This document shows positions 8,816 to 10,196 of a stretch of 64,000 nucleotides of DNA, piece by piece. The notes beneath the pieces are model-generated. The model searched no databases, had not been told where the DNA came from, and saw nothing but the letters and a program-made list of their open reading frames with translations. Each line of letters begins with the position of its first letter. Positions within the stretch are counted from its first letter, which is position 1. A program made the translations under genes and the position numbers. Source of the stretch: Nitrosomonas oligotropha (lineage in GTDB: Bacteria > Pseudomonadota > Gammaproteobacteria > Burkholderiales > Nitrosomonadaceae); NCBI RefSeq assembly GCF_900106555.1, contig NZ_FNOE01000003.1:62001-126000 (forward strand). Reading direction: 5' to 3'.

Positions 8816-9332
8816 GATGGAGAATGCTATGGCACTAATGGTACAACACAAATTATTTTTTGTGCAGGAAAATTTTGCGGATTTTTTAATTTGGAATCAA
8901 AAAATCGATCATCTTTTGATTAAGATTAATTGCTATCAGGCAGTTAAGATTGCACGGATGCGTGATGCTAATTTGCAACGGTTGTCGAAAATTAGGGAAC
9001 TGCCAGATTTACGATGAATTCAGCAATCGCAATTTCCGGCGGATGATGCGAGCACCAACCTGGTCATCATCCCTTCCATTTCACTTAAAAACTTCCCGGC
9101 GTCCGGCGTTTCCCTAGCGTACGAAGCAGCTATTCTGATTGGCCGCCTTTTTGGCATATTTCCAGCAATTCTCGATTATTCAACAATGTGATGCTAAAAA
9201 CTCCGGAAGAGTTTTATTACAGAAATGTTACAAATTACTGATTGCACATTATTTTTCACCGCGAATGTATAATAAAAATATGATTTCAATTTTGCGTGTG
9301 AGTTTAGTATCAAATTCACGATGGAGTGTTCT
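8816..9332. other. Intergenic region between nrdA and the methylase-like gene
   Basis: Over 500 bases without a convincing gene. The nrdA side (8816-9017) is AT-rich. A short reading frame on the plus strand (8814-9017) overlaps the NrdR box and has no ribosome site, so it is not called. On the minus strand, 9020-9157 could encode a 45-residue peptide (listed separately). The part 9170-9330 is AT-rich and probably holds the promoter for the gene at 9333. Confidence 0.5.
9020..9157 (-). CDS. Possible 45-residue peptide or gene remnant
   Basis: A short frame from ATG (9157) to TGA (9020) encoding a basic N-terminus (MPKRRPIRIAASYARETP) and a C-terminal half GKFLSEMEGMMTRLVLASSAGN. The GC content is higher than in the DNA on either side. 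No Shine-Dalgarno sequence is apparent. It reads like the tail of a once longer protein or part of a dispersed repeat rather than an independent gene. I cannot assign a function, and it may not be translated. Confidence 0.2.
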   Translation of the reverse strand: MPKRRPIRIAASYARETPDAGKFLSEMEGMMTRLVLASSAGNCDC

Positions 9333-10196
9333 ATGAAGTTCAATACCCCGCTGCGTTACCCCAAAGGAAGAAGCAATATACCAAGCTTCTTTAAAATAAT
9401 TTTTGCGCACAATGATTTGCTGGATGGACATTATGTTGAGCCCTATGCTGAAAGCGCAGGGATCGCGCTGAATTTACTCACGCAAGGTTACGTGTCTCGT
9501 GTTCATTTAAACGCTGCAAATCCTGCGGTATACGCTTTTTGGCACAGCGTCATCAATCAACCTGAAGCGCTTTGTAAAGCTATTCACGATATTAAAATAA
9601 CAACAGAAGAATGGCAGCGGCAACAAGATATCTTGCGTTCTCCTGAAAATCACAGCGCACTCGAAGTGGGCTTCTCAATCTTCTTTCTAAATCGGATTAA
9701 TCGGTTAGCAATTCTATACGGAGATGTTACTGATGGAAAAAGCCAAGGCAAGCACTGGAAGTTTGATGCCCGCTTTAATAAGCTAGATTTGATTCGCGGC
9801 ATTGAATGGATTGCGCTGCATCGTTCACTCATTCATTTATATAACCAAGATGCTACCGGCTTAATTAAGACAGTATTACCGTCACTGCCTGATAAAACAC
9901 TCGTTTATTTTGATATTCCCTGTCATACCGAAGAACGAGGTCTTCATCACGATCACGATTCTCATCATCATCGAGTGAGTTTGGCAAAATTGATCAAGGA
10001 AAATATCTTGCAGCACTGGATAGTTTCATATCCTAATCATCCCGGAATTGTGGAGCTGTACAAAGGTTATCCGACTATTGTCCATGATATCTCCAGCAAT
10101 GCACGAAATCGCCCTGAAGATTCTGAAATCATGATTTTCAGTAATCGATTGATCATTCCTGACTGGAAAAATCCATCCAATTTAAAAACCGCTTAA
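9333..10196 (+). CDS. D12-class adenine DNA methylase homologue lacking catalytic motifs
   Basis: A 287-residue protein collinear with D12-class (Dam-type) N6-adenine methyltransferases: TPLRYPKGRS at the start, YVEPYAESAG (34-43) where the SAM-binding EPFAGG-type motif belongs, VYAFW, FFLNRINR (117-124), GKSQGKHW, DARFNK, IVSYPN and a C-terminal IMIFSNRL. The catalytic DPPY is replaced by DIPC (194-197), the two glycines of the SAM motif by ES, and the usual IND by LNA. A histidine-rich stretch (LHHDHDSHHH, 204-213) replaces the substrate loop. The frame is intact, so this looks like a pseudoenzyme kept for another purpose, not decay. GGAG six bases before the ATG at 9333 favours that start over one 12 bases upstream. 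Confidence 0.75.
   Translation: MKFNTPLRYPKGRSNIPSFFKIIFAHNDLLDGHYVEPYAESAGIALNLLTQGYVSRVHLNAANPAVYAFWHSVINQPEALCKAIHDIKITTEEWQRQQDILRSPENHSALEVGFSIFFLNRINRLAILYGDVTDGKSQGKHWKFDARFNKLDLIRGIEWIALHRSLIHLYNQDATGLIKTVLPSLPDKTLVYFDIPCHTEERGLHHDHDSHHHRVSLAKLIKENILQHWIVSYPNHPGIVELYKGYPTIVHDISSNARNRPEDSEIMIFSNRLIIPDWKNPSNLKTA

Follow-up and report, generated by a model that had tools for sequence, protein, structure and literature searches.

The window (the whole 64-kb stretch of DNA that was analyzed) comes from a genome of 3.32 Mb in 80 contigs (G000), placed in Nitrosomonas by its relatives, and contains, on the plus strand, a frame open for 287 codons that encodes P0001, a disarmed homologue of the D12 adenine methylases. 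The start was assigned to the ATG at 9333, which is fitted by a GGAG at 9323 to 9326; another in-frame ATG lies at 9321. It is a solitary gene, with nrdA and nrdB upstream and a gene for a PEP-CTERM protein downstream, all on the opposite strand and all named from reading their sequences. Elsewhere in the window, two adjoining frames on the minus strand (1805 to 2870) appear to encode a Fic/DOC protein (HPFPNGNGR) and a helix-turn-helix partner, a pair that we take to resemble "mobile mystery proteins" B and A. The gene and the features upstream of it are as follows.

9268 to 9273, plus strand: TATAAT, a possible but weak −10 element
9310 to 9319, plus strand: leader, TCAAATTCAC
9323 to 9326, plus strand: ribosome site, GGAG
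9333 to 10196, plus strand: P0001, disarmed D12 methylase homologue (287 amino acids)

These upstream features were compared among Nitrosomonas copies of the gene that have lost the motif IV sequence DPPY, which form four subclades (A to D) discussed below. The GGAG was present in 13 of 14 such copies, with GGAA in the copy from G016. The leader was kept, with small variants, in subclades A, B, and C despite their differing genomic locations: leader identity between these subclades was 68 to 76%, and that of the distal flanks was 34 to 44%. In subclade D, the leader was not kept beyond TGGAGT. TATAAT aligned with the same sequence in 6 of 13 DPPY-lost copies and with TATACT in 1 more, but it is weak as a −10 element because promoter-like sites were no commoner than in shuffled sequence (5 found by consensus scan versus 4.9 expected, with no excess at this gene).

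P0001 matched proteins named DNA adenine methylase end to end (E values of about 1e-118 to 1e-158), and a Foldseek search with its structure model returned Escherichia coli Dam (E = 4e-11), Streptococcus pneumoniae DpnM (E = 5e-10), and 7m6b (Mcbe1). Searches of P0001 against Pfam and NCBIfam gave no match up to an E value of 1, and a PF02086 search of the entire source genome found nothing; among the relatives in set A1, 23 of 28 matched PF02086 at an E value of 0.1. The end-to-end matches and the fold make descent from D12 enzymes clear despite the lack of a Pfam match, and the initial annotation was correct in reading the frame as a full-length D12 homologue. P0001 resembles the orphan D12 adenine methylases of the phage-borne branch of PF02086 (7m6b, Mcbe1) in end-to-end homology and fold but differs from them in lacking DPPY, the GG of the S-adenosylmethionine (SAM) site in motif I, the Asp of LND, and the IGG loop and in having a chromosomal location among housekeeping genes instead of a prophage location. 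Dam and DpnM also share its fold but are active GATC enzymes, relative to which the hairpin and motif IV of P0001 are eroded. The altered elements and other residues considered below are as follows.

9354 to 9371, plus strand: motif X (residues 8 to 13), RYPKGR for RYPGGK
9432 to 9470, plus strand: motif I (residues 34 to 46), YVEPYAESAGIAL for YVEPYAGGAGIAL
9504 to 9515, plus strand: residues 58 to 61, HLNA for HLND (LNA at 59 to 61)
9687 to 9755, plus strand: eroded segment aligned with the Dam hairpin (residues 119 to 141), NRINRLAILYGDVTDGKSQ for NRTNRSGIIWGGVIGGKNQ
9807 to 9809, plus strand: Trp159
9912 to 9923, plus strand: motif IV (residues 194 to 197), DIPC for DPPY
9942 to 9974, plus strand: histidine cluster (residues 204 to 214), LHHDHDSHHHR, not conserved
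10068 to 10070, plus strand: Tyr246

The individual replacements described in the initial annotation were all present, namely, DIPC, LNA, LHHDHDSHHHR, and ES at residues 40 and 41, where intact relatives have GG. Its statement that every motif is replaced holds for P0001 and for P0002 (97% identical), the two copies with full motif replacement, but not for the next relatives, G045 (91%) and G040 (82%), which retain LND; even in P0001, Gly43 of motif I is kept.

Distribution and order of motif loss

A survey of 85 Nitrosomonas genomes found 18 copies at an identity of at least 51% in 17 genomes, of which 14 copies (13 genomes) had lost DPPY and 4 had kept it. A protein search matched 23 of the 85 genomes, the matches beyond the 17 being distant D12 relatives, and a DNA search of all 85 returned the same 17 and no remnants in the gene-free genomes. 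We conclude that the gene is dispensable for the genus, as it is present in just 17 of 85 genomes. In G039, the same gene block occurs twice (contigs C11 and C19; L038 and L039) with diverged copies reading DFSS and DFYS, and one of the two proteins is identical to that of G063; because the block is duplicated, the G039 bin may be mixed.

To place the losses, a tree of 88 rows was used, comprising 62 of 120 listed proteins and 26 genome-derived copies, with the weaker matches L026 to L030 and L052 left out. The loop segment IGG (residues 133 to 135) was missing from 41 rows and kept in 47, and its loss is one change on this tree, in which the motif columns were included: a single branch, with a support of only 92/62, separates the 41 rows, which include all 18 Nitrosomonas copies, from the others. 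DPPY was lost in 29 of the 41 IGG-less rows versus none of the 47 IGG-keeping rows, and a subgroup of 33 rows (support, 100/99) holds 28 of the 29. Counted as distinct sequences, 26 of 37 in the group lack DPPY, P0001 among them, which is beyond chance. Inside the IGG-less group, about six changes were required for DPPY, six for the motif I glycines, and five for the post-DPPY loop. The replaced loop itself varies among members, as P0022 keeps IG and G075 and G013 keep RVNRSG. Within subclade C, the copies share codons such as TTT and TCN, which fits a loss of DPPY before that subclade split. The motif losses are common to relatives and are not one strain's oddity. The replacements for DPPY were heterogeneous (DIPC, DTPC, DVPY, DLPF, DFPC, DLPS, VPPS, APPS, DFSS, DFYS, ETPW, NTPC, and others) and made up no new motif.

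The disarmed group has lost 38 of the 59 positions that do not vary in intact rows, and 32 of the 38 fell in motif X, motif I, Asp61, residues 120 to 140 (the hairpin segment), motif IV, or the post-DPPY loop, residues 133 to 135 being lost by definition of the two groups. Conversely, the 41 IGG-less rows share 64 constant positions (97% or more), 53 of them in residues 1 to 170; Arg8, Tyr9, and Asn60 were kept in all 41 rows and Asp194 was kept in 36. Erosion is centered on cofactor, catalytic, and DNA-hairpin positions; the N-terminal and helical half is retained. Tyr246 is Tyr in all 41 IGG-less rows versus 2 of 47 intact rows. Trp159 is Trp in 39 of 41 IGG-less rows and Lys or Arg in 39 of 47 intact rows; its standing as a gained residue is weakened by intact P0011, which already carries Trp. 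In a profile alignment of low significance (probability, 36%; E = 4e-4), the eroded segment fell on Dam residues 117 to 134, and Arg124, Ser125, and Ile127 were paired with Dam Tyr119, Asn120, and Leu122, respectively, which are DNA-contacting residues of Dam. Low-confidence loops in the P0001 model were considered as a sign of disarming, but the structure models do not show it, because an AlphaFold2 control of intact P0013 was low in mostly the same loops.

The genomic locations of the copies followed the subclades. Subclade A (G000, G045, and G040) occupies a common nrdA/PEP-CTERM location; subclades B and C and the DPPY-keeping G027 copy lie near a pyruvate kinase gene; and subclade D (G075 and G013) and the pair G025/G057 each have a location of their own. 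The dS of the gene was about that of its neighbors (1.30 versus 1.02 to 2.03 in subclade D and 0.17 to 0.38 versus 0.16 to 0.57 in subclade A), though somewhat low in two subclade A pairs, and its omega of 0.14 to 0.36 was above that of most neighbors. From the synteny and the similar dS of neighbors, we conclude that within each subclade the copies were inherited vertically with their surroundings. Two further features of the flanks were observed: in G045 (L032, 4237 to 7879), the neighboring PEP-CTERM gene is in two pieces split by frames resembling an inserted element, and at L039 (9225 to 9713) and L042 (9225 to 9722), the adjoining pyruvate kinase frame is cut to 162 to 165 amino acids (624 elsewhere). 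The family also occurs in 358 phage records and in viral contigs, and this wide presence suggests, but does not show, a phage origin; the viral loci compared were the best 80 of 429 and DPPY was part of the search pattern, so they cannot give the frequency of DPPY.

Selection after loss of DPPY

Omega was estimated with a GY94-type likelihood written for this analysis on 17 of the 18 Nitrosomonas copies plus G382, the G063 copy being omitted for its protein identity to a G039 copy. On branches inside the four DPPY-lost subclades, omega was 0.293, against 0.169 for branches that keep DPPY and 0.164 for the stems. A value of 1 was rejected for the DPPY-lost branches (2dl = 242.7; P of about 1e-54) and for each subclade separately (0.385 in A, 0.436 in B, 0.330 in C, and 0.163 in D; P of 4e-5 or less). 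Equality of the DPPY-lost and DPPY-keeping values was also rejected (2dl = 13.1; P = 3e-4), the DPPY-keeping class not being a clean active control because it consists mostly of Nitrosomonas copies that also lack IGG. Intact-type viral pairs gave a median omega of 0.057 (range, 0.036 to 0.153; 10 independent pairs by NG86 counting). If the gene were neutral, about 85 nonsense mutations would be expected (9.9 in A, 8.1 in B, 18.5 in C, and 48.2 in D) and none was observed; consistent with the initial report of an uninterrupted frame, none of 25 matches in the genus contained a stop, and lengths varied by whole codons.

Relaxation was concentrated in the parts that were lost. Motif columns had an omega of 0.228 on DPPY-lost branches versus 0.025, about a ninefold relaxation, and nonmotif columns had 0.300 versus 0.190, a 1.6-fold relaxation. 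By region, omega was 0.204 for residues 1 to 170 and 0.430 for residues 171 to 287, with a peak of 0.68 at residues 196 to 225. The rise in omega from 0.17 to 0.29 also fits a partial loss of function. Shared losses, open frames, and an omega well below 1, though higher than on DPPY-keeping branches, support the initial proposal that the gene was selectively disarmed and is not simply decaying.

Possible roles of a disarmed methylase

A pseudoenzyme is defined as a protein from which the catalytic motifs conserved in its family are missing (PMC10211241), and here they are missing and selection has continued after their loss. Because the methylating parts are lost yet selection keeps the gene in one piece, P0001 probably has some function other than DNA methylation. 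We infer that P0001 no longer methylates DNA and, with less certainty, that it works by binding a partner protein or nucleic acid. We think it reasonably probable that P0001 is a vertically inherited pseudo-methylase, likely of phage-type orphan origin, that is kept for a nonmethylating binding role. In this reading, a phage-type orphan D12 adenine methylase would have become resident in Nitrosomonas and would first have lost the segment corresponding to the DNA-reading hairpin of Dam; erosion of DPPY, the SAM-site glycines, and the post-DPPY loop would have followed, in parallel in several lineages. The N-terminal and helical half, being retained, would do the binding, and Trp159 and Tyr246 are candidates for the residues that make contact; the role would be akin to that of catalytically dead methylase relatives that serve as regulatory subunits elsewhere.

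We favor retention of such a pseudo-methylase over slow decay, in which several lineages would carry an accessory methylase that is under relaxed selection, has no present function, and is nearing loss. Decay is consistent with an omega above that of DPPY-keeping relatives and of the viral-pair median, with catalytic columns being freed most, and with absence of the gene from 68 of 85 genomes. We nevertheless consider it unlikely: an omega of 1 was rejected in every subclade, the G075/G013 omega of 0.14 to 0.16 at a dS of about 1.3 was near the 0.04 to 0.11 of neighbors, no stop or remnant was found in the genus, and a constant Tyr246 would not be expected. Alternatively, the protein could still be a methyltransferase in which a changed motif confers a lower rate or serves another base or another substrate. 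A D-x-P-C motif occurs in some m5C RNA methylases, which DIPC, DTPC, and DFPC resemble, and the retention of Asp194, Arg8, Tyr9, and Asn60 would fit such an activity, but the heterogeneity of the motif IV replacements and the additional loss of the SAM-site glycines and post-DPPY loop make it distinctly unlikely.

Less probable again, the protein could have kept recognition of its ancestral site and act there as a DNA-occupying regulator or a mask. In favor of this are the retention of Arg8, which aligns with Dam Lys9, and of most of the fold; against such reading, P0001 has Leu for Ser125 and Ala for Gly126 in the eroded segment, and mean net charge falls from +4.1 in intact to +1.0 in disarmed proteins. 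The initial suggestion that the protein binds DNA or methylated sites is therefore doubtful as far as Dam-like binding is concerned, the segment aligned with the DNA-reading hairpin being eroded. A metal-binding role for the histidines, also raised by the initial annotation, or a sensory one is very improbable. The cluster is real in P0001, with seven histidines in residues 198 to 217, but intact relatives already have about three at this site (e.g., LYENHYLHDDH). Nor is it conserved: seven histidines occur in P0001 and P0002 only, with five in G045, zero to four in other rows of the group, and none in G040 (Nitrosomonas oligotropha Nm45), and the region is the fastest evolving in the protein. 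A metal role is thus not supported.

It is in eukaryotes that regulatory methylase relatives without catalysis are best known, DNMT3L and METTL14 being noncatalytic subunits there. Plant MTB is likewise described as a catalytically dead methylase relative (PMC13408939). The role proposed for P0001 would resemble theirs, with a methylase fold kept without catalysis, but DNMT3L, METTL14, and MTB work with an active homologue. An active D12 partner was sought with PF02086 in the 13 genomes that carry a DPPY-lost copy: 6 had no match, 4 matched only their own copy, G013 had one marginal match of 44 positions, and 2 (G040 and G022) had another D12 protein. An obligate D12 partner is thus unlikely in the 10 genomes with no other match. 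M.EcoRII, a dual-function methylase repressor, offers another likeness, as catalytically inactive EcoRII methylase is described as still repressing (PMC12707154); the inactive form is a mutant engineered from a fused repressor, and no such fused domain was seen in the 287 residues of P0001. A literature search found no description of a protein like P0001, and no mention of a methylase in Nitrosomonas was found in PMC12707154, PMC5960693, or PMC3764937.

Tentatively, P0001 may be a bacterial counterpart of DNMT3L or METTL14 without a D12 partner, persisting through species divergence with its catalytic elements free to vary. Since phages carry its relatives, the protein might even counter the methylases of this family that phages encode. 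Such a lineage would also warn that automatic names mislead, as several copies are recorded as DNA adenine methylase and P0001 matches no model. If our reading is true, a bacterial DNA methylase lineage with repeated catalytic loss under purifying selection would provide a naturally occurring gradation between intact and fully disarmed enzymes.
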